In this document: positions 48,665 to 59,266 of the stretch, piece after piece
Layout: every line of letters begins with the position of its first letter
Numbering within the stretch: position 1 is the first letter of the stretch
Assembly: GCA_029237825.1 (NCBI GenBank)
Contig: JAQZBQ010000013.1
Coordinates: forward strand, 1-64,000
Direction: 5' to 3'
DNA: 64,000 bases
Origin: Bacteroidota bacterium
GTDB lineage: Bacteria > Bacteroidota > Bacteroidia > B-17B0 > Aurantibacillaceae
Program-made: the position numbers and the translations under genes
Notes under the pieces: generated by a model
What the model saw: the letters and a program-made list of their open reading frames with translations, nothing else
The model's database searches: none
Told to the model about the DNA's origin: nothing

Positions 48665-49297
48665 TTACTGTTTACTTTGCGTGTCGTGTTTTATTCCTGC
48701 AACGGATTGGCAATTTTGAGCATGTTCGAGGTGAATTCTTAAAGCCGGAAGTTTAGACTTAGCCCATTCTTTTATTTCGCTGTCTGATGCATTCAATGAT
48801 GCTTCGGTAAACTTTTCAATGGCATCCTGATGGCCCTTTACCATTAAATCGCAATATGCCTTGTCGAAATCAGAACCCACAAGGTTTTTCAATCGGTCGT
48901 AATCGTCAGTATCTGTACCGGTTAAGGTTTTTGGAACTGTAATTTGTTTTTTTGCCGCCAGAGACTCCACTTCTTTCATCGTTTCCATATGTTCTTTTTC
49001 CATCATTTTCCCCAGATCGTTTACATCCTTTAATGCGTAATTGCTTTGGGCTAATTGGCCGAGTTGGATTTCTTTCAGGTTAATCACATTGGCGTTTACC
49101 ATAAATTCTGCATCTGTTGTTTTAGGCGCAACATGTTGGGATTGGTTTTTTTCATCCGCAATCACATCTGAATCTTTAGCAGGAGTCTCCTTTGTTCCGC
49201 AGGATGAAAACATCACGGTAAACATAGCAATAATCAGTGCCGTTAAAAATGCTGAAAAAAATGCGGCTCTTCCAAGGGTAGCTTTTTCATTTTCCAT
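48665..49297 (-). CDS. DUF4142 domain lipoprotein
   Basis: Predicted lipoprotein of 210 residues. After a Lys-containing N-terminus and membrane signal (about 10-32), the lipobox is at FSSC (Cys about 33). The mature protein is mostly helical and matches DUF4142: VINLKEIQLGQLAQSNYALK, MMEKEHMETMKEVESLAA and HQDAIEKFTEASLNASDSEIK as helices, with LRIHLEHAQN near the end. DUF4142 proteins are ferritin-like helical bundles of unsettled function, often near stress genes. It stands alone between two other minus-strand genes; I see no promoter of the consensus type for it. Confidence 0.87.
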   Translation of the reverse strand: MENEKATLGRAAFFSAFLTALIIAMFTVMFSSCGTKETPAKDSDVIADEKNQSQHVAPKTTDAEFMVNANVINLKEIQLGQLAQSNYALKDVNDLGKMMEKEHMETMKEVESLAAKKQITVPKTLTGTDTDDYDRLKNLVGSDFDKAYCDLMVKGHQDAIEKFTEASLNASDSEIKEWAKSKLPALRIHLEHAQNCQSVAGIKHDTQSKQ

Positions 49298-49494
49298 AAA
49301 GGTTACAGTCTTAAGTTTATAGAGTTACTATAACAAATATGTAAAATGGGAAAAGGAAATATCTTATACTCTTTCCACTAAATCTTATAAAAATCAAGAA
49401 GAATGTGGAAAGAGGAAATGGTTTTGAATTTAAAGAATGCGTAAGGTGATTGTATACCTTCTATATTACATACAACTAATACGTTAGGAGTGCG

Positions 49495-51390
49495 TTATTG
49501 GATAATCACCTTGTTCGTCTTTTTTTGGTTATTGCCATCTTTTAGCAAAAGGATATAAGGACCTGCCGCCAGATTGCCTGTAGGAATAGGAAAGCGTTCC
49601 GTTTCAATGAGTTCTTTTCGCCAAACCAGCTGGCCGGTAATGGAGATTATTTCGGCTGAATAAGGTAAAACAATCCCTTTTAAAAATATAGGATCGCCAC
49701 TTCGAACCGGATTGGGATACAGTACCACCTCTTCATTTTTAAGGGAAAGGCCATCGATGCCTGTTACAATATTATTGCCTGCACCATAGGCGCCGATATT
49801 ACTTACGGCTGAAGACGAAACGGGATTCCCGAAAAAGTCACGTGTTCCGGGATTAATGGAGTAGATAGCAAGATTAATTCCGGTATGGATTGCCGGCGAA
49901 CCGGATTGAAGTTTATAGGCATTCAATTGATAGGTTTGGTTTGGATACATAACCGTTGCATTACCAGATGCATTGAAGTTAGGATTGCTTACCACGCCGG
50001 TTGCAAGAGAATTTATTTTTTCGTTATTGGTTGCATTTTGCCAGGCAGTGATACTGCCATAGGTGGTACCCTGGTATTTAATTTTAAACGCCGCACCCGA
50101 TGACCAATAAAGGTTTCCGGCAAAAAATGCGCTGTAGCCCACAGGTACATCAACTAAACTGGCACCACCGGTTGTTTGAAAAATATTATTATACACCTCC
50201 ACTCCACTTATATTTTTAGCCCAATCGATGATTGTAAATGCGCCTACATTGGCATTGGTGGGCGATGGCGATTGATGCACTGTATTATTATAAATTTTTA
50301 ATCCCGACATGCTTGATCCCGGGCCGTTAAACAGGGTAAATCCCCCACCGTTAGTTATTCCGTCGTTTTCGCTGATATTATACCGCACAATGTTGTTTGA
50401 CCAGGTACGTGCATTTTCATATTGTCCTAATAGGTAACCTGCTCCATCATTATCATGGGAATAATTATATTGCATGATGGAATTGGTTACACCGCCGTCG
50501 AGGTCAAAACCTAAACCGTCGCAACCGGTTCCGCTCGAGTTTTTATAACTCTCATTCGACTGGATGATAATATTATTGGAATCCCATGTCCAGATTCCAC
50601 CCGGGCCACCGCAATGTGTATTGGCAGCTCCGTTGTGATGAGCTGCACTTTTTTCAATTATGCCCCCATCAACCTGGCCCATGATAATTCCGCTTCCCCT
50701 ATGGGTTCCCGGGTCTGAATATCCGCTTACGCTGTGGACTTCCGCATTCCTGATCGTTACATTTTGATGCGACCATCCCACATGGGATTTCGAAGTATAG
50801 CCACTGGTAGTAATGCCATTTGTTTTGATATGATGAACCAAAACGCCTTCAATTAAAACATTTTTATAGCCAGAGTTTCCTACGGAAGAAGCAATGGTAA
50901 TTCCCGTTTTCCCGTAATTTCGCACTTCTATATTCAAAACATTGATATTACTCAGGCGTGTATTATTTGCCAGGCTGTTATAAAACATGACACCGTCAGT
51001 TGGGTTGGTTGCAGCCCCCGAACCTTCAATGATGAGGTTGGATAAAGTGATTCCCTGCGTGTTTTGAGCGTAAAAACCCATGGCGCTTCCAGAACTGATA
51101 ATGGCTTTACCGCTTCCGAAGGAGGAAAATACTACAGGATTTAATGCATTGTTGCCGTCGTTCTGATCAAGATAAATGCTTCCGTAAAACATACTCCCGC
51201 CTTCAAACAAAATGATTGTACCGGGAGGTAGCGTTTGTGAATTGATTTTACTAATGGATTTCCACGCTTGGCTCGGTGATGTTCCCGTATTAGCATCGTT
51301 CCCGGTAGAACTGATATAATAGGTTATTGCGTTTAAACGAGTGAAACTAAAAAGGCTGGCCAGTAAAAAGAAAAGAACTGTTTTTTTCAT
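49495..51390 (-). CDS. right-handed parallel beta-helix protein, type A T9SS cargo
   Basis: Secreted protein of 631 residues. A signal peptide ends TRLNA, followed by the N-terminal capping motif TYYISSTGNDANTGTSPSQAW (residues about 23-43), common to polysaccharide-lyase and adhesin beta-helices. Residues about 110-480 are parallel beta-helix repeats with Asn ladders (for example NNTRLSNINVLNIEVRNYG). The C-terminal about 75 residues are a type A sorting domain: VVLYPNPVRSGDPIF and LAAGPYILLLKDG. No clear catalytic acid or calcium site of a lyase family is visible; a polysaccharide-degrading or binding role is only an inference. A short inverted repeat lies just upstream of the start. Confidence 0.87.
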   Translation of the reverse strand: MKKTVLFFLLASLFSFTRLNAITYYISSTGNDANTGTSPSQAWKSISKINSQTLPPGTIILFEGGSMFYGSIYLDQNDGNNALNPVVFSSFGSGKAIISSGSAMGFYAQNTQGITLSNLIIEGSGAATNPTDGVMFYNSLANNTRLSNINVLNIEVRNYGKTGITIASSVGNSGYKNVLIEGVLVHHIKTNGITTSGYTSKSHVGWSHQNVTIRNAEVHSVSGYSDPGTHRGSGIIMGQVDGGIIEKSAAHHNGAANTHCGGPGGIWTWDSNNIIIQSNESYKNSSGTGCDGLGFDLDGGVTNSIMQYNYSHDNDGAGYLLGQYENARTWSNNIVRYNISENDGITNGGGFTLFNGPGSSMSGLKIYNNTVHQSPSPTNANVGAFTIIDWAKNISGVEVYNNIFQTTGGASLVDVPVGYSAFFAGNLYWSSGAAFKIKYQGTTYGSITAWQNATNNEKINSLATGVVSNPNFNASGNATVMYPNQTYQLNAYKLQSGSPAIHTGINLAIYSINPGTRDFFGNPVSSSAVSNIGAYGAGNNIVTGIDGLSLKNEEVVLYPNPVRSGDPIFLKGIVLPYSAEIISITGQLVWRKELIETERFPIPTGNLAAGPYILLLKDGNNQKKTNKVIIQ

Positions 51391-51406
51391 TACAAGGTAC
51401 TTGGTA

Positions 51407-51420
51407 CGGGATAAATCCCG
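51407..51420. promoter_or_regulatory. 14-bp inverted repeat just upstream of the beta-helix gene
   Basis: CGGGAT-aa-ATCCCG lies 17-30 nt upstream of the ATG at 51390. Position and symmetry fit an operator or short hairpin, but no regulator gene is adjacent. No promoter matching the consensus was found, and the rest of 51391-51656 shows nothing else. Confidence 0.35.
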
Positions 51421-51656
51421 ATGGATTTTTATTTTTGAAAAGGAAAGGCCAACTATGATAATATAGTTTCTGGCTATTATTTTTCCTTATTCAACGAACT
51501 TTACAGTATTACGATAATTACTGATGAAAGTTATGTAACCTTGTATGTTTTAACAGATTTTTGGAGGATTAAACAGGCTAAAAACTCACCTAAAAACTTT
51601 AAGTGCTTGATTATGAGATAAGGAGTAATTAAAACAGTTTTGGGTTCCGGTGATTT

Positions 51657-53015
51657 TTATTTTCTCTGTGTATCGGGTTCTTCAATGATCCGGGACATGA
51701 TAATAACCCCTTTGATTTTTTTACGGATAACAAGTGGGATGAAATAGGTGTCGAACATCATATTGGATTTCACAATCCCTTGAATTTTTTCATTACGTAA
51801 CGATTCGCCGGCTAAAATTTTTAAAATGCATTCATGCCCATAGGTGCCCTTAATTTGGGGGTTCACCTCAAAAAGATGTTTTCCCTTAAGATCTTCCCGC
51901 CGTACATTCATGAGCAATTCGTATTTTTTATTTACGGTCATGAATTCTAAATTTCTGTTGAGTACCGCAATAATTTCTATTGAGGAATCCAGGATTTGCT
52001 TTAAAAAGGATTTGGATTCATCCAAAGCTTTATTTTTCCTTTCAAGCGACTTATTTGCATCATACATTTCGGTTACATCACGCGCAATCATTAACGCATT
52101 ATAAGTAACGCCATTATCGTCTTTAACTGGGATGTAATAAGGTTGAAGCCATCTGTTAATAAGCGGAGACAAGTAAGGTTCGTCGTTTATAAAATTTCCC
52201 TGAAGGCAGGATTGTATATTTTGCTCGATGGCAGACCCCTTGGAGTGTGGGAATGCCTCTGTGACCTTTTTACTAATTAAATCTTTTCGGTCTAGCTTAT
52301 AAAATTCTTCTACCTTGTGGTTAAGTAAAACGTAGCGCATTTCCTGGTCATATACCGAAATAATATCGTGGGAAGAATTTAGTACCGCTTCAATGAAATC
52401 TTTTTGCCGCTGCAATTCCTTGTTTTTGTCAGTTAGTTCAGCAGTTCTTTGCTGAACCTTTGTTTCTAACTCGTCTGAAACAAGTTTCTGTTTAGAAAAT
52501 TTTTCTTCCTGCTTCTTCTTCTCAGACAAATCTGTAATGATGATTCCTATGCCTGGGAATCTGGGATAGAGACTGCTTAATGATACGTACACAGGAATGC
52601 TTTTACCATTGTATGTAAGTACAATCTCACCTTTGCTTTTTCCTGAGAAGGATTTTTGGAAGAGCCGCTTGAATTCTTTTTTGGATGCAGGGTCTATGAT
52701 GGTTTCAATATTAACCCCCATAATGGAAGTAGTACTTGAACCAATGATGGTTTCAAATGCGAAATTAGCGTAAACAATTATTCCGTCTTCAGAAATATTC
52801 AAGGCGCCTTCCGCAAAATTTTCAACTAATACCCTGTACACATAATCGGTAGACTCAAGCGTAAAAATATCCGGGGTACCATTTTTGGTAATGGCCAAGG
52901 CATCCACTTCACCATGCTTAATAGCGCTTACCAGATCTTTGTATTCTTCTAACTGACGCTTTAACGCCTCAATTTCAAGTACTAATAAATCTTCTTTAGT
53001 TAATGTTTCTCTCAC
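51657..53015 (-). CDS. three-PAS sensor protein without kinase domain, last gene of the Kai operon
   Basis: Cytoplasmic protein of 452 residues without signal peptide or membrane segments. A short coiled coil (about 10-35) and the sequence AIKHGEVDALAITKNGTP resemble the start of histidine kinases often found beside KaiBC. Three PAS domains follow (about 60-165, 210-320 and 335-445), linked by coiled coils (KLVSDELETKVQQRTAEL at about 180). Unlike those homologues, there is no HisKA/HATPase module; the protein ends IIMSRIIEEPDTQRK. It probably binds a ligand or partner through PAS and may pass a signal to KaiC, KaiB or another protein. The start is GTG at 53015, overlapping the preceding kaiB by 20 nt. 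Confidence 0.85.
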   Translation of the reverse strand: MRETLTKEDLLVLEIEALKRQLEEYKDLVSAIKHGEVDALAITKNGTPDIFTLESTDYVYRVLVENFAEGALNISEDGIIVYANFAFETIIGSSTTSIMGVNIETIIDPASKKEFKRLFQKSFSGKSKGEIVLTYNGKSIPVYVSLSSLYPRFPGIGIIITDLSEKKKQEEKFSKQKLVSDELETKVQQRTAELTDKNKELQRQKDFIEAVLNSSHDIISVYDQEMRYVLLNHKVEEFYKLDRKDLISKKVTEAFPHSKGSAIEQNIQSCLQGNFINDEPYLSPLINRWLQPYYIPVKDDNGVTYNALMIARDVTEMYDANKSLERKNKALDESKSFLKQILDSSIEIIAVLNRNLEFMTVNKKYELLMNVRREDLKGKHLFEVNPQIKGTYGHECILKILAGESLRNEKIQGIVKSNMMFDTYFIPLVIRKKIKGVIIMSRIIEEPDTQRK

Positions 53016-53301
53016 GGCCTTCCTTTAAAATACCCAATCCTGATAAAACTTTATCCTCATTTGATAAATCTCCCAGCATTTTTTTTAAATCCCCCGGGGA
53101 AAGTTTAACTAAAGTGGGGCACGCAATGATATCATATTCTGTCAAAGTGGTGGGATTTTTATGAATATCAATGATTTCTAACTCGTAGTTATTGGGGATA
53201 TATTTTTCGCAAATTCGTTTTATATTTTCTATTGCCCTCACCGAAGTAATTGACATACCCGTCACAAATAATTTAAAGCGGTAAATTCCTCCGGTTCGCA
53301 T
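52996..53301 (-). CDS. kaiB: KaiB-like protein, second copy
   Basis: KaiB-family protein of 101 residues. KaiB is a thioredoxin-like fold protein that binds the KaiC CI ring in cyanobacterial clocks. Typical features are FKLFVTGMSITSVRAIENI, a long helix, ELEIIDIHKNP and the CPTLVKL segment in place of the usual IPTLVRKLP, then MLGDLSNEDKVLSGL. It is clearly divergent from the first copy (no LP after PTL, extra N-terminal residues MRTGGIY). The start ATG lies 3 nt after the first kaiB stop. Its end overlaps the PAS gene. Specialisation, such as binding KaiC in a different state, is inference. Confidence 0.88.
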   Translation of the reverse strand: MRTGGIYRFKLFVTGMSITSVRAIENIKRICEKYIPNNYELEIIDIHKNPTTLTEYDIIACPTLVKLSPGDLKKMLGDLSNEDKVLSGLGILKEGRERNIN

Positions 53302-53304
53302 AGG

Positions 53305-53604
53305 TTACGTTTTGGGTTTAAATGGTTTAATATCCAATCCTACCAACACTTTTTCTTCGTTAGATAAATCGCCAATAATTTTACGAATGGGAACAGGCAC
53401 TTTTCTCACTAATGTTGGTATGGCTAAAATCTGGTCTCCTTCCGCTAATTGAGGGTTTTTTAAAAGGTCAATGATTTCAATTTTATATTGACCGTTTAAA
53501 TGTTCTTCACAGTATTTTTGAATGTTTGCTAAGGCTGTAACCGATTTGGGTGTTTGCCCTGCAACATATAATTTCAGTTGCCAGAATTCATTCTTTTTTG
53601 CCAT
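53305..53604 (-). CDS. kaiB: KaiB-like protein, first copy
   Basis: KaiB-family protein of 99 residues with the canonical sequence pattern: [53 protein letters not shown] and KVLVGLDI. This is the more canonical of the two copies. Start ATG at 53604 lies 1 nt after the kaiC stop, so the two are translationally linked. In cyanobacteria KaiB binds CI and helps reset KaiC; in other bacteria its role is less clear. No kaiA gene is nearby. Confidence 0.93.
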
Positions 53605-53605
53605 A

Positions 53606-55306
53606 TTACCTTTTTTTACTTTTCAAAGGAGAAGGTATTTTTTTCTTTAATTCCTGCTCTTCAATTTCCAATTTGTTTAGTTCTTCTACAACCGATTCAA
53701 ATTCTGTTTGCATGGCATGTATGTTAGCGTCCAGGATTTTACGTTTTCGTTCAATTTCGCGGTCTTTACTTTCAACCTGTTTTTGTTTGCGTAATTTTTG
53801 AACAGATTGGGTTTTCTGAAATTCTCCGCGTGCCGAACCAGTTAACATTCCCTCAGGACCAATTTCCAATTCAAGTAAATCAATACCTTCATCTTTAATC
53901 AAAAATTCGCGTACCTGGTTTGAATGGCCCATGCCACGTGCTTTTAAAATGAAGAGTCCACGGTTTCGTTCACCAATTCCTTCCACATCCCTCACTGTAA
54001 TCCAGGTATCAACCAATGAAGAAATAGACTCTTCAGTTTGTTCATTAAATGCATTTATGTTTTGTTGTGTTAAGGAAGTAAATAATGCTGTGATGTTATT
54101 AACTTTCAGTAAATCGATCAGCCTTACCAAAAAAGAACTTACTTCCCGCTCATTACCAATGGAAACAAGGTTACTGATGGGATCGATGATTACCGATTTC
54201 GGTTTAAAGTCTTTTATAAGTTTATTTAAAGTCAGTAAATGCATTTCGAGACCATATAGTGTTGGGCGCGAAGAATGAATTTGCAGAAGGCCTTTATCCA
54301 CGTAAGCTTTTAAATCGATCCCAATCGAGCTCATATTTCGGATAAGTTGATTTGGTGATTCTTCAAATGCGAAAAACAAGGTTTTGCCCCCTCTCTGACA
54401 GGTTTCCTGGGCGAAATAGCTGGCAAGCGTTGTTTTAGCAGTTCCTGCTGTGCCGGATATTAAAATACTGCTTCCCTGAAAATACCCGCCTCGGCTAAAC
54501 ATATCATCCAGTTTTTTTATACCTGTAGAAACAATTTTGTCCGACACTTCGTGATCAAGCCTTAAGGATGTGATCGGGAAAACAGAAACGCCCTGCTCAT
54601 CAATTAAAAACGGATATTCATTGGTTCCGTGGGTAGAACCTCGGTATTTAACAATACGTAAACGACGCGTCGAAATCTGGTCAATCACCCTGAAATCAAG
54701 AAGAATGACACAATCCGAGACATATTCTTCAAGCCCCTGCCGCGTAAAACTGGATTCTCCCCGTTCGCCTGTAATAATGGCTGTAACGCCTTTATGTTTT
54801 AGCCAATGAAATAATCGCCTGAGTTCTGCCCGAAGAATAGAGGTATTGGTTAACCCCGCAAATAGCGATTCGATGGTGTCCAATACCACGCGTTTTGCAC
54901 CAATGGAATCAATAGCGTGACCTAACCTTATAAACAAACCCTCGAGATCGTACTCTCCGGTTTCTTCAATTTCTGAACGCTCAACCATTACGTGGTCGAT
55001 CTTTAATTTTTTTTGAGCAGCAAGCTTCTTGATGTCAAAACCTAACGAGATCATATTTTTTTCCAGGTCTTCTGTCGGCTCTTCAAACGACATAAAAACA
55101 CCTGGTTCATTGTATTCAGTTATGCCTTTTACTAAAAATTGCATACCAAATAAGGTCTTGCCACACCCTGCGCCACCGCAGATTAACGTGGGACGCCCTT
55201 TGGGTAAACCGCCTTCGGTAATTTCATCGAGACCTGCAATTCCGGACGGACTTTTTTCTAAAACAGTTGGAGATGAAAAACGATGTTTTTCGGATTTCTT
55301 AATCAT
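53606..55306 (-). CDS. kaiC: KaiC-family double-lobed ATPase, first gene of the operon
   Basis: KaiC/RecA-superfamily protein of 566 residues with two ATPase lobes. CI: Walker A GGAGCGKT (44-51), catalytic Glu-Glu (75-76), Walker B VVLDT (Asp143). CII: Walker A GTAGTAKT (285-292; Ala replaces the usual Gly before Lys), Glu-Glu (315-316), Walker B VIIDP (Asp375). By alignment to cyanobacterial KaiC, the TEESISS segment (424-430) puts Thr at the Thr426 position and Ser-Ser (429-430) at the phosphorylation pair, so autophosphorylation is plausible. Instead of the A-loop tail that binds KaiA, residues about 495-555 are charged helical coiled coil. The promoter lies 26-57 nt upstream. kaiB follows within 1 nt. 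Function in timing, stress or metabolism cannot be told from sequence. Confidence 0.93.
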
Positions 55307-55331
55307 GAATTGATGGTAATTTCAGTAATAA

Positions 55332-55363
55332 CAAAAATAATAAATTGCCCTCTGTAGTTCAAA
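55332..55363 (-). promoter_or_regulatory. promoter of the kaiC-kaiB-kaiB-PAS operon
   Basis: On the minus strand TTTG (55360-55363), a 20-nt spacer and TATTTTTG (55332-55339): a full match to the Bacteroidota consensus, 25 nt upstream of the kaiC ATG. No other promoter is seen between the four genes. Confidence 0.7.
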
Positions 55364-55564
55364 AAAATATAGAAATATGTAACATTTTGTATGAACTTTT
55401 TTCTTATGCAGTGATTAAGGGGTTAAATTAATAATAATCTAAGAGTGGGATAGTAGTGGACGATAGAGGGTTTGTCCCGAAGCATCCGACTGTGCCCTAT
55501 AGATTAAACCTGTCAACAAACCATCCGGATTGTATAAGTAATTTTTCAATAAATATTCAAAAAG

Positions 55565-55592
55565 AAAAAGCCCCACTTTCTGTGAGGCTTTT
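55565..55592 (-). terminator. terminator after tRNA-Val
   Basis: AAAAGCC-c-CAC, loop TTTCT, GTG-a-GGCTTTT. On the minus strand the T tail follows the hairpin, 1 nt after the tRNA 3' end. It is A/T-flanked on both sides. Confidence 0.8.
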
Positions 55593-55593
55593 G

Positions 55594-55668
55594 TGGGAGA
55601 TACAGGGTTCGAACCTGTGACCCTCTGCTTGTAAGGCAGATGCTCTGAACCAGCTGAGCTAATCTCCC
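55594..55668 (-). tRNA. tRNA-Val (anticodon UAC)
   Basis: Cloverleaf on the minus strand: acceptor GGGAGAT/ATCTCCC, D stem GCTC/GAGC with loop, anticodon stem TCTGC/GCAGA with loop CTTACAA (anticodon TAC), variable loop, T arm ACAGG-TTCGAAC-CTGT. Discriminator A73 is present and CCA is not encoded. It has its own consensus promoter upstream and a terminator immediately after. Confidence 0.95.
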
Positions 55669-55679
55669 AAATCGGGTTG

Positions 55680-55710
55680 CAAATATAACCGCTTTTTTTA
55701 TATCTGCAAA
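55680..55710 (-). promoter_or_regulatory. promoter for tRNA-Val
   Basis: On the minus strand TTTG (55707-55710), a 19-nt spacer and TATATTTG (55680-55687): a full consensus match ending 11 nt before the tRNA 5' end, and downstream of the DUF4956 stop at 55738. Confidence 0.7.
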
Positions 55711-55737
55711 AAAAACTTACGTTTTTATAAAAATATT

Positions 55738-56382
55738 CTATTGGTTGTAGTAGTAGATTTTTATTTGTGCGGCATCCCGCAGAAAGTCAATTTTGTGAAC
55801 CGAATACCGATGAACATTAAAGCCGGTTCTGATTTTTAAATCAGCAAGCAATTCATCACTTTTACCCGCCTGTATCAATTCTATGTTTTCATAGAGAATG
55901 GTTTTAACGCTTTCTTTCTTCATGAAAATATTACTTTCAAGTAAATAGGTTATGATCAATACAACCACATTTATGCCAATCAGAAAAATATACTCAATGT
56001 AATCTGCAGTGTCTTTAACCTTAGTTACCGCCGACACTAAGCCTATAGCAATTACTAAAAACAGATAGGTCATATCTTTAATGGCAATTTCCTCTGTTTT
56101 GTATCGCAGCATGCTAAATACGGCAAATAATCCGAACGCCGCACCCATGCTCAAATCAACCTTGTTCAATAAAAATGAAATCAGGAAAATAATGATGTTA
56201 AAAATAAAATAGGTGAAAAACAATTCGCGGTTTTTATAAAGCGGATAGTAAATATAGCGCACCAGAATAAACACCGATGCAAGGTCAATAGTCAACCGGA
56301 AAAATATTTTGGAAGAAAGCTTTAAGAGTTCTTCATATCCCGAATAGGTTGTAGCTTCAGTGGCCATTTGTAATAGTGTCAT
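55738..56382 (-). CDS. DUF4956 membrane protein in VTC cluster
   Basis: Integral membrane protein of 214 residues with about four transmembrane helices (residues about 30-150) and a cytoplasmic C-terminal domain (about 155-214). DUF4956 proteins commonly occur beside VTC-domain polyphosphate polymerase-like genes and are thought to be their membrane partner. Conserved segments include FGLFAVFSMLRYKTEEIAIKDMTYLF, here split as GLFAVFSMLRYKTEEI and KDMTYLF. Its start overlaps the VTC gene by 4 nt, a sign of coupled translation. Exact function unknown. Confidence 0.87.
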   Translation of the reverse strand: MTLLQMATEATTYSGYEELLKLSSKIFFRLTIDLASVFILVRYIYYPLYKNRELFFTYFIFNIIIFLISFLLNKVDLSMGAAFGLFAVFSMLRYKTEEIAIKDMTYLFLVIAIGLVSAVTKVKDTADYIEYIFLIGINVVVLIITYLLESNIFMKKESVKTILYENIELIQAGKSDELLADLKIRTGFNVHRYSVHKIDFLRDAAQIKIYYYNQ

Positions 56383-57134
56383 TGACTGATAATTTTAGTA
56401 ATGTTTAGTAATTTTCTTTTAAAGTTATTTTTTTTAACCTCCGGGAAGGTGCTTGCCACCCCAAAGCAATATTTACTGATTGAACCTTCACGGATATGGC
56501 GCCGTCTCATCATGGAAATGAATGGCGAAGCTACTTTACTGTCCTGCTTCACTTCGGCAATAACTAACTGTTTTAAAACTTTGCTGAACTCTGTTTTTTC
56601 AAACTCCAGATTAATATCCAGGGTAAGACGCTCGGCTGTTAATTTATTAACTAATGTAATGCGACTGTAGTTTATCCACAATTTGGGCTCTAAAATTTCC
56701 GGGTTAAATGGAAGGGTCTTGCTTAGGAAATCGAATGCATTCCCGGTATTTAATTGGGGGACAATCCGTTCTTTGATACGTGTTTTTATTGTTCTTCCTT
56801 TGTTGGTTTTAAATTTTACTTCTAAAAAACCAAGATTACTTTCTACATAAGTTCGGTGACGGATTTTATAGCGGTTTAATTTTCCGGCGTGGTGTTGGTT
56901 GTACAGTTTAAAATTTCCTGAATCAAAATATAAGGTTTTATATCTGCTAAGCCTGTTTCCTTCAACATCCAACACACGATAAAAGGCAGAGGCTTCCTGC
57001 AAAATGGATGACAATTGATTGATATGAAACAAAAATTTTGTGTCAGTCCGATCCATCAGTTTTACGCCGTCCATTTCCCGAAGGGTAATCGGATCAAATG
57101 CTGATAGCGGTTGTAAGGAAGGGTGAAGTATCAT
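56379..57134 (-). CDS. VTC-domain protein (polyphosphate polymerase-like)
   Basis: Soluble protein of 251 residues with a VTC (TTM tunnel) domain like the catalytic core of yeast Vtc4, which makes polyphosphate from ATP. The basic substrate-tunnel residues are visible: DRTDTKFLFH (Lys at 32), SRYKTLYFDS, RYKIRHRTY, FLEVKFKTNKGRTIKTR and the acidic metal ligand region LTLDINLEFE. Length matches single-domain bacterial VTC. It overlaps the DUF4956 gene by 4 nt and the repeat-protein gene by 4 nt. Polyphosphate synthesis is inferred from the family, not shown here, and no ppk is present to compare. Confidence 0.85.
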   Translation of the reverse strand: MILHPSLQPLSAFDPITLREMDGVKLMDRTDTKFLFHINQLSSILQEASAFYRVLDVEGNRLSRYKTLYFDSGNFKLYNQHHAGKLNRYKIRHRTYVESNLGFLEVKFKTNKGRTIKTRIKERIVPQLNTGNAFDFLSKTLPFNPEILEPKLWINYSRITLVNKLTAERLTLDINLEFEKTEFSKVLKQLVIAEVKQDSKVASPFISMMRRRHIREGSISKYCFGVASTFPEVKKNNFKRKLLNITKIISQ

Positions 57135-57604
57135 TTAGTTATGTACACGTATTTTTTTACAGAAAGAATTTTTCCGGCAGGGTCCAGTGTTTTTCTTTCC
57201 ATTTTTAAACCCCTGCTATCGTACAGGTACACATTCTTTTTCGTTTCCTTTCCGGAAGCATCATAAAACACCTCTTCTGTTTTAACACCAAGTGAATTGT
57301 ATTTGGTTATTTTTTTCTCAATCAGGTTGTTGGATGCGTCATACTCTTCATCCTCAATCTCATCTCCATCACTGTTATACCGCGTTTTATGAATCACTTT
57401 TACGTTGCCGTCTTTCGTGTAATCGGTAGTTTCAATTTCATTTCCCTTTGAGTCAAAAAGTGTTTTGCTCTCGTTGATGGTTTTGCCATTTTCAATGATA
57501 GAAACTGCGGAGGCTTTAATCTTATGCTCCTTTACTTCCTTTTTGCTTTGTGAAAAAGCTTGAAAGCTAAAGGCAATGAGCAAGTAAACGATGTTGAATT
57601 TCAT
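57131..57604 (-). CDS. exported YD-like repeat protein in VTC cluster
   Basis: Secreted or periplasmic protein of 157 residues. A signal peptide (to about 19, SFQAFSQ) is followed by four or five short repeats of about 20-25 residues with the core T-x-Y-x-x-x-G-x-x-x-E (for example TRYNSDGDEIEDEEYD and TKYNSLGVKTEEVFYD), resembling YD/MORN-like or YwqK-type antitoxin-like repeats. It is lysine-rich. No lipobox is seen. It starts 10 nt after the T9SS propeller gene and overlaps the VTC gene. A scaffold role is speculative. Confidence 0.72.
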   Translation of the reverse strand: MKFNIVYLLIAFSFQAFSQSKKEVKEHKIKASAVSIIENGKTINESKTLFDSKGNEIETTDYTKDGNVKVIHKTRYNSDGDEIEDEEYDASNNLIEKKITKYNSLGVKTEEVFYDASGKETKKNVYLYDSRGLKMERKTLDPAGKILSVKKYVYITK

Positions 57605-57613
57605 AAAAAACGT

Positions 57614-59266
57614 TTAATGATGTAAAATGAAATTGCCTTTTGATACCGGTTGCTCATTTATTTTGATTTGGTAACTGTAATAACCTGGTGCATACTCACT
57701 TGAATGAATTGAAAAGGATTTTCCTTCTTTCATGATTGCTTCTCTAATTAATTCGCCGGTGAGGCTGAATACCTCAATTTTCCAGTCAGTGTACTCATCA
57801 GGTATTTGTATTTGTGATAGGCCATCAACCGGATTGGGATAGCAAACAGAGGTAAATTTCAAATTAGCGGAGTATTCTTTTATCCCAACTAACGGGGTTC
57901 CGTTAGAATATAAACGGTTACTGTAAATGTCAAAATTTGTTCCGTTGCGGTGATCTTCCCAAACAAAAATAGCACCACCGTTGCCGTCACTCACCTGTGA
58001 TGGATTTACCTGATCGTCTGGTGCGTTACTTACAATTACCCCGCCAGCTGTCCACAACAATGCTCCCGAACTGTTCAATCGTTGTGATTTAATATCCCAT
58101 CCGTTAGGTACAGAATCCTGCCAGGCAACAATAGCGCCGCCGTTTCCGTCGCTGATAACATTAGGGTTAATAGCTTTCATCGCACCCGATAAAAGAATGC
58201 CATTTGCTGCTAATTGATTTACGCCAGCCATGGAGACAATTTGAGCGAAGACAGCGTTTACACTGGAACGTTCGTCTTTCCAGGTTAGGAATAAGCCAGT
58301 GCCACTCAGGTATTTGATGTCAAGCGCGCTTTGATTATTTGCTGCCCCACAAATTAAAAGTCCGTTTCCGTTCCACTGCGAAACTCCTGATGCATTGATA
58401 TGTTGTGCGTAGATATTATTGTCGGTGGCATTTCGCTTGTCTGTCCAGGCTACAAGCGCGCCTCCTGCACCGTCAGGCTCTATGCGCGGGTTATTTTGCG
58501 TATTTACCGCAGTGCAAACAGCAAGACCGTTTGGCGTCCACATTGCAGTACCGCTATTATCCAGGCGCTGGGTATAAATATCATAATGTGAATTATTGCG
58601 TTTATCCTGCCAGGTAATAACGGCACCACCGACACCATCCACATCTATTTTAGGGTTATTCTGTTCATTTATGGCGTTACACACAGCAACTCCCCCGGTT
58701 ATCCACATTAGGCTGCCCGAAGAACTGATACGTTGCGCATAAATATCCCAATAATTGTTTACTGAATCTTCCCACACAATAATAGCGCCGCCACTATTAT
58801 CAGGAGTAATTTTTGGGTTTTTCTGATTGTTTAATTTCGCGCATACTGCAATGCCATTGAGAGTCCACAACACATTTCCCGACGAATCAATTTTTTGGGC
58901 ATAGATGTCGTAGTTTCCGGCGCGGTTGTCTTCCCAGGTGATAATTGCGCTACCATCAGCGGTATTTGTAATGGCTGAAGATTTTTGGGTAGCGCTGTTT
59001 GTACACACTGCAAGTCCGTTCAATGTCCATTTTTCAAGACCTGATCTGCGCATCCTTTGCGCATATATATCGGAGCCACTGGTAGATGAATTGCGGTTGT
59101 CGTCCCACGCAATTAAGGCACCGCCTTGCGTATCGGGGGCAACATGGCAATTGTCCTGCGATTTTGACACAACGGCAATGGGCGTACCGTTAGCTGGGTT
59201 TGTATCCCATTGTGAATAACATCCAAATGATATAATAAATGAAATTGAAAATAAAAAAGCCTTCAT
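57614..59266 (-). CDS. beta-propeller-like protein with type A T9SS domain
   Basis: Secreted protein of 550 residues. After a signal peptide (to about 20) come eight or nine repeats of about 48-55 residues with the pattern PDGAGGALVAWTDKRN and IYAQHINASG (about residues 25-460), alternating WTLNGLAVC-type segments. These form a likely beta-propeller or all-beta array. The C-terminal about 75 residues are a type A sorting domain (VCYPNPVDGLSQIQI and APGYYSYQI). It has its own promoter upstream and lies in a run of six minus-strand genes with VTC and DUF4956. Relation to polyphosphate is a genomic-context inference only. Confidence 0.82.
   Translation of the reverse strand: MKAFLFSISFIISFGCYSQWDTNPANGTPIAVVSKSQDNCHVAPDTQGGALIAWDDNRNSSTSGSDIYAQRMRRSGLEKWTLNGLAVCTNSATQKSSAITNTADGSAIITWEDNRAGNYDIYAQKIDSSGNVLWTLNGIAVCAKLNNQKNPKITPDNSGGAIIVWEDSVNNYWDIYAQRISSSGSLMWITGGVAVCNAINEQNNPKIDVDGVGGAVITWQDKRNNSHYDIYTQRLDNSGTAMWTPNGLAVCTAVNTQNNPRIEPDGAGGALVAWTDKRNATDNNIYAQHINASGVSQWNGNGLLICGAANNQSALDIKYLSGTGLFLTWKDERSSVNAVFAQIVSMAGVNQLAANGILLSGAMKAINPNVISDGNGGAIVAWQDSVPNGWDIKSQRLNSSGALLWTAGGVIVSNAPDDQVNPSQVSDGNGGAIFVWEDHRNGTNFDIYSNRLYSNGTPLVGIKEYSANLKFTSVCYPNPVDGLSQIQIPDEYTDWKIEVFSLTGELIREAIMKEGKSFSIHSSEYAPGYYSYQIKINEQPVSKGNFILHH

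Follow-up and report, generated by a model that had tools for sequence, protein, structure and literature searches.

The stretch of DNA considered here (64,000 nucleotides, positions 1 to 64,000 of contig JAQZBQ010000013.1 of the Bacteroidota assembly GCA_029237825.1; hereafter the window) carries a four-gene kaiC-kaiB-kaiB-PAS operon. We read it, giving this reading about an even chance, as a KaiA-independent KaiBC operon of the hourglass type in which the two KaiB proteins have divided roles and the signal passes through a kinase whose gene lies elsewhere. This gene order is common and of a known kind, and it is the missing kinase that makes the window copy a variant. All four frames are intact, lie on the minus strand and stand where an earlier, sequence-only reading of this DNA had placed them, with the gaps and the overlap that it described:

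55306-53606, minus strand: kaiC, 566 amino acids, R. sphaeroides (SS) type, double-domain
53604-53305, minus strand: kaiB1, 99 amino acids, 1 nucleotide after kaiC; a canonical-type KaiB with the ground-state fold in its model
53301-52996, minus strand: kaiB2, 101 amino acids, 3 nucleotides after kaiB1; a divergent KaiB lineage, fold-switched and thioredoxin-like in its model
53015-51657, minus strand: the fourth or PAS gene, 452 amino acids, GTG start, overlapping kaiB2 by 20 nucleotides; Kai-linked and without a kinase core

Searches of the four proteins with Pfam returned KaiC (E = 1e-116, in two stretches), KaiB twice (98.7 and 75.2 bits, with a cut-off of 27) and three PAS stretches. The earlier proposal of a single four-gene unit acting as a KaiA-free KaiBC switch fits the evidence presented below. 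Its statement that kaiA is absent is borne out for the operon as read, which contains no such gene; a genome-wide KaiA search was not made. KaiA is listed among the factors confined to cyanobacteria (PMC5520375; here and below, papers are cited for the sections consulted).

Judged by its sequence, the window KaiC is of the KaiA-independent R. sphaeroides type. Its nearest solved relative is R. sphaeroides KaiC 8dba (605 bits, E = 8e-181, residues 17-543, tail included), with other solved KaiCs scoring at most 378 bits; it passes NF006799 (737.7 bits, cut-off 408) and fails the cyanobacterial-type TIGR02655 (350.6 bits, curated cut-off 546.25). Two of its features have counterparts in the R. 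sphaeroides protein:

54017-54022, minus strand: codons of Ser429-Ser430, aligned to S413/S414, the pair that is phosphorylated in R. sphaeroides KaiC
53609-53818, minus strand: C-terminal coiled-coil-like tail, from about residue 497, aligned with the R. sphaeroides tail to residue 543

Across 26 aligned KaiC rows, the positions of Ser429 and Ser430 hold serine in 26 and 25 rows, respectively, the catalytic EE pairs and the checked residues of the CI Walker A motif are invariant, and the tail reaches at least 40 residues in 20. The CII Walker A motif of the window (54431-54454) reads GTAGTAKT, with Ala replacing the usual last Gly. We rejected this substitution as a sign of a dead domain, since the residue before the Lys is Ala in 12 of the 26 rows, including that of the window (Gly in 12 and Ser in 2). 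R. sphaeroides KaiC is a KaiA-independent dodecamer and belongs to an hourglass system that takes the ATP-to-ADP ratio as its cue (PMC10076222), and we infer by analogy that the window KaiC would behave similarly.

To place the operon among its relatives we used two sets of loci (numbered L). A single-sequence KaiC scan of the contig collection found no relative, and the alignment query used instead found at least 590 stretches that encode one; the best 80 were kept and represent the loci nearest to the window KaiC rather than a random sample. Within this set, two kaiB genes lie beside kaiC at 78 loci, three at one and four at one, and 79 loci have a gene with the PAS module, 71 of these with a kinase by profile, such that 71 of the 80 combine kaiC, at least two kaiB genes and a PAS kinase. 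The one locus without a PAS-module gene, L137, is cut by a contig end before any PAS gene. Eight loci gave no match to the kinase profile: L096 and L105 reach contig ends, L135 has another kinase type, L139 has a sigma-54 activator and the remaining four (L120, L129, L134 and L138) are PAS-only. The set includes Flavobacterium, Hymenobacter, Mucilaginibacter, Pedobacter, Dyadobacter, Spirosoma and Chitinophaga and, among more distant taxa, Methanoperedens, Planctomycetota and Syntrophaceae. The second set comprises 33 loci, of which 27 have a kaiC profile match (25 with both module and kinase, two, L040 and L060, with neither); the remaining six, which are either contig ends or isolated kaiB places, were left out of the count. 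At least four loci belong to both sets (L064/L058, L065/L032, L081/L036 and L083/L035).

At the level of genomes, KaiB was matched in 11 of 87 genomes of the window's family (10 over the cut-off) and in 25 of 395 genomes of its class (21 over the cut-off). The gene order is found elsewhere in Bacteroidota, where the sequence-only reading had proposed to look for it, and it is common there, mostly with a PAS histidine kinase. That reading had also called the presence of two KaiB paralogues unusual, and this did not hold up, as an adjacent pair occurs in 16 of the 21 class genomes whose KaiB scores over the cut-off, and 78 of the 80 loci have exactly two. As a separate observation, the window KaiC is 74% identical to KaiCs of another genus and of another family and 68% identical to that of L035, from its own genus, and KaiB occurs at more than one place in some genomes (at L032, L037 and L042 in G031, and at L031 and L039 in G014); together these suggest transfer between lineages.

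The KaiB tree indicates that KaiB1 and KaiB2 are old, separate lineages. In this tree of 205 KaiBs, first and second operon genes fall apart, needing 5 and 7 label changes where shuffling gives a mean of 68, and both reference KaiBs fall on the first-gene side. On the basis of this tree we rejected a local duplication as the origin of the window pair. Of the NCBI clock equivalog models, KaiB1 just exceeds the cut-off of NF006798 (110.7 bits; cut-off 110), on which KaiB2 scores 69.2 bits, and both fall below that of TIGR02654 (105.2 and 64.8 bits; cut-off 145.3); the nearest solved relative of KaiB1 is R. sphaeroides KaiB. The loci L040 and L060 have kaiC, a single kaiB of the second lineage and no PAS gene, and their downstream protein of about 150 amino acids has no Pfam match.

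We modelled each KaiB with AlphaFold2 from a subfamily alignment of 46 rows (the window and 45 diverse rows from the 80-locus set). The C-terminal half of KaiB1 was predicted as helix-helix-strand, the ground state, with a predicted local distance difference test score (pLDDT) of 69.1, and that of KaiB2 as strand-strand-helix, the fold-switched state, with a pLDDT of 85.6; the meaning of the two topologies is taken from PMC11551320. Foldseek matched the KaiB1 model to the ground-state crystals 1wwj (nearest), 1vgl and 2qke, and the KaiB2 model to 8fwj chain M (nearest), 4kun and 5jwr. Mutating three positions of R. sphaeroides KaiB, 68, 83 and 84, raises its fold-switched share from 11% to 86% (PMC10808063). 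At positions 68 and 83, charges occur in none of 94 first KaiBs, all of which are hydrophobic there, versus 79 of 97 second KaiBs (two charges in 33, one in 46 and none in 18), a comparison that is a partly independent check on the fold models.

Several points weigh against this division of folds. The KaiB tree was made by a quick method from 96 columns and has many unresolved forks and long second-gene branches, the KaiB1 model is weak, and the fold calls are for the best of five models. The choice that AlphaFold2 makes between the KaiB folds is moreover disputed, and such predictions can mislead (PMC10836070). The window KaiB2 itself carries no charges at the flip positions, having Leu and Ser there and Gly at 84, and helix and strand propensities fail to separate the two lineages.

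Alternatively, KaiB2 might have no clock role at all and be an ordinary stress or redox protein of thioredoxin-like fold that merely shares the operon. Its lineage is divergent and has weak thioredoxin matches, and Legionella KaiB, which crystallised in the switched fold, has been linked to stress (PMC10808063). KaiB2 lacks a Cys-X-X-Cys motif, however, a kaiB sits between kaiB1 and the PAS gene across the 80-locus set, and the nearest solved structures of KaiB2 include the KaiC-bound KaiBs 8fwj, 5jwr and 5jwo. We consider it very unlikely that KaiB2 is a mere passenger.

The fourth protein differs from nearly all of its relatives in what it lacks. No kinase domain was found in it by Pfam, the HisKA and HATPase core being absent, and a kinase profile built from 27 relatives in the second locus set matched no frame of at least 40 amino acids within 49001-58500. 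HisKA and HATPase are present in 27 of the 28 fourth proteins of alignment A1, whose relatives were chosen by BLAST match to the window PAS protein, and the window is the sole exception; because all 27 aligned relatives have the kinase, the window copy has most likely lost this part. What remains is arranged as follows:

52797-53015, minus strand: N-terminal Kai-linked module, a helix with AIxxGxVDAL and then the start of PAS1, from alignment A4 and co-occurrence with KaiB
52521-52829, minus strand: PAS1, common to relatives
52065-52382, minus strand: PAS2, by Pfam, 31% identical to the extra PAS of L032
51681-52007, minus strand: PAS3, ending about where the last PAS of L032 continues into the kinase, this end being read from the sequences

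The order N-module, PAS1, PAS2, PAS3, stop in the window thus compares with N-module, PAS1, PAS2, kinase in the near relative L032. The sequence-only reading had regarded a PAS-only protein as unusual, which the PAS histidine kinases of 27 of 27 aligned relatives support, yet four of the 80 loci (L120, L129, L134 and L138, titled Bacteroidetes or Bacteroidales) likewise have a PAS-only fourth gene, of 235-242 amino acids.

If the kinase was lost recently, the operon might simply be decaying, with the PAS protein a useless stump and Kai proteins that no longer signal. That the window is the only kinase-less member among the 28 proteins of A1 would agree with this, as would the patchiness of KaiB in the family (11 of 87 genomes) and the lack of a receiver gene after the PAS gene, where many relatives encode a receiver protein next. 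Nevertheless, all four frames and the KaiC motifs are intact, and the N-module and PAS1 show no faster divergence than those of relatives with a kinase: over the first 175 residues, the window protein is 66% identical to L032, 62% to L058 and 60% to L037, and the identity between L032 and L058 themselves is 60%. This argues against simple decay. The window protein also has two more PAS domains after PAS1 versus one in its nearest relative L032, and the four short PAS-only genes show that the condition recurs at other loci. Decay is unlikely, in our estimation, and we favour an operon that still signals. It counts against this view that an assembly join at the end of the PAS gene, or decay of recent date, could account for the missing kinase.

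If the fourth protein acts through a kinase in trans, the partner might be sought in the same genome (3.55 megabases in 33 contigs), which is rich in kinases and receivers. A second copy of the PAS protein was not found there, other matches having at most 35% identity and E values of 6e-8 or weaker. The best match to the kinase core outside the operon lies on contig C13 at 76128-77204 (226 bits by the kinase profile, with operon kinases mostly at 97-295 bits), and we regard this kinase only as a candidate partner. It has its own adjacent receiver gene and no Kai module, and the search had no control in Kai-less genomes, which also count against the proposed route.

A profile of the module, made from the first approximately 75 residues of 26 fourth proteins, was matched in 19 of the 395 class genomes, every one of which belongs to the 21 whose KaiB exceeds the cut-off (Fisher p = 2e-30, for genomes that are related and of which 8 of the 19 contributed profile rows). 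All 21 module matches in the class are found no further than 260 nucleotides after a kaiB. In the 11 genomes reached through loci, all of which contributed profile rows, 12 of 12 module copies lie in Kai operons. In a second phylum, that of the L127 genome (titled Planctomycetota), the module was matched in 10 of 246 genomes, strongly in seven and weakly in three; in nine of the ten a KaiB lies on the same contig at a distance of about 2.2 kilobases or less, and the tenth, a weak match, has none (p = 3e-11). Eight of the 17 KaiB-bearing genomes of this phylum lack the module, which weakens the case and implies that the module is not obligatory.

The part that follows the module varies. It is a HisKA kinase at most loci and a HisKA_2 kinase in L135, and nothing follows in the window, L120 and L138. 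Nothing follows in L129 and L134 either, and there a separate kinase gene comes next (spanning two overlapping frames in L134), so these two loci provide a precedent for action in trans. At L139 (8973-10703) and L178 (4812-7112), the module is followed in the same protein by a sigma-54 activator that has a Fis-type helix-turn-helix, a fusion which suggests that some KaiBC systems act directly on transcription; a literature search on KaiC with sigma-54 and PAS gave no match. We read the module as the Kai-facing part of these proteins and the remainder as exchangeable effectors.

The PAS protein might instead be an input, sensing a ligand or redox state and setting KaiC or KaiB, in which case no kinase would be needed. 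Three PAS domains without an effector would suit such a sensor, and for the PAS-only forms of L120 and L138 no kinase was recognised within approximately 5.5 kilobases downstream. Against this, the effectors to which the module is fused elsewhere are outputs: a kinase in most relatives and, in L139 and L178, a sigma-54 activator that includes a DNA-binding part. We think it improbable, though no more so than decay, that the protein serves as an input, and retain the reading in which it carries the signal out.

Starting from the observed gene content, lineages, missing kinase domain and linkage of module to KaiB, the biochemical steps, all of which we infer, would run as follows. KaiC would phosphorylate itself on its serine pair without KaiA, following the ATP/ADP ratio, and, steadied by its coiled-coil tail, would run down in the manner of an hourglass, both steps being modelled on R. 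sphaeroides KaiC. KaiB1 would be the metamorphic member, binding KaiC slowly after a change of fold, and KaiB2 a standing thioredoxin-like KaiB that would always be competent to bind, as suggested by the models, by the long-kept second lineage and by the residues that this lineage carries at two flip positions. Reading the Kai state would fall to the fourth protein, by way of PAS1 and the conserved N-terminal module. Where relatives have a fused kinase, this would relay the signal, often to the product of an adjacent receiver gene; in the window, because the kinase part is gone, the signal would have to leave by protein contact, most probably with a kinase encoded elsewhere.

A more specific version, which we put forward tentatively and consider less probable than the general scheme, is that the KaiB folds have been split over two genes of one operon, with KaiB1 the slow switcher and KaiB2 locked in the binding fold, and that KaiB2 and the PAS module together form a split SasA, of which one is the dock and the other the signaller. 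Effectors (a kinase, a sigma-54 activator or none) would then be freely exchanged, and the window signaller would be one without an effector of its own. Similarity to the SasA N-domain by NCBIfam is equal for the two KaiBs (25.6 bits for KaiB1 and 26.2 for KaiB2), and among solved structures this domain is matched by KaiB2 (E = 0.0016) and not by KaiB1. If the scheme is correct, fold-switching, a rare and debated property, would have been divided by gene duplication, leaving a natural pair for probing each KaiB fold, and the Kai-linked module would offer a handle on the signal output of KaiBC systems outside cyanobacteria. The KaiB pair and the module are the parts that appear worth following.

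Known systems share parts of this arrangement. Clusters of kaiC and kaiB with a histidine kinase after them have been published (PMC3164672, PMC4794148), and so has the presence of a PAS protein within the kaiBC operon of R. sphaeroides (PMC6627678). The KaiBC-PAS/histidine kinase operons of R. sphaeroides and Rhodopseudomonas palustris resemble the window in having kaiC, kaiB and a PAS protein or kinase in one unit without KaiA (PMC4794148, PMC6627678), but as described there they have one kaiB, whereas the window has two KaiB lineages and lacks the kinase domain. The kaiC-kaiB contexts described in 2011 (PMC3164672) are alike in the clustering of the two genes and in having a downstream gene for a histidine kinase or a GGDEF/EAL protein; the text of that section, figures aside, is silent on two KaiB lineages, the module and kinase-less forms. 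SasA of the cyanobacterial clock resembles the fourth proteins of the window's relatives in being linked to Kai and in signalling through a kinase, but it has a KaiB-like domain and the fourth protein has PAS domains instead; here the separate KaiB2 may supply the thioredoxin-like part. Legionella KaiB (4kun) and KaiB-TV4 (8ubh) are fold-switched and were matched by the KaiB2 model; in the window, by contrast, a single operon holds a KaiB of this type side by side with one of the ground-state type.

Predictions of both folds cluster across the KaiB tree, and some bacteria have up to four KaiBs (PMC10808063); the sections consulted of that paper do not describe a pairing of both fold types in one operon. 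Nor did we find the KaiB pair or the module described in the partly surveyed literature on non-cyanobacterial or Bacteroidetes kaiC-kaiB operons, KaiB paralogues and tandem fold-switching KaiBs. Bacteroidetes have been noted to have only KaiB2/KaiC2-like proteins (PMC5520375), names which are based on Synechocystis and differ from the kaiB1 and kaiB2 of the window operon. The genome of the window holds no KaiB match beyond kaiB1 and kaiB2 and no second frame with two KaiC-domain matches, leaving the double-domain KaiC as a single copy.

Two features precede the operon:

55363-55332, minus strand: Bacteroidota-type promoter-like site TTTG-N20-TATTTTTG, at -57 to -26 before kaiC
55566-55592, minus strand: terminator-like hairpin, between tRNA-Val and the kai promoter-like site

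The sequence-only reading had claimed one consensus promoter for the operon. The Bacteroidota-type site gives this claim partial support, and the region then described ends at 55363, where the site starts; sigma-70-like sites are at chance level (13 against a shuffle mean of 14.8, standard deviation 3.6), and we rejected a sigma-70 promoter for the operon. The site was called from what we take to be the Bacteroidota promoter consensus. The search pattern was present in 33 of 5000 single-base shuffles of the gap upstream of kaiC, and among 105 kaiC upstream stretches it was found only in the window and L066. Within the operon, a ribosome-site-like stretch, AAAGGAAGG, lies immediately upstream of the GTG of the PAS gene. 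Beyond the hairpin, just upstream of the kai operon, the stretch 55593-55710 holds tRNA-Val with its own Bacteroidota-type promoter-like site at 55710-55680.

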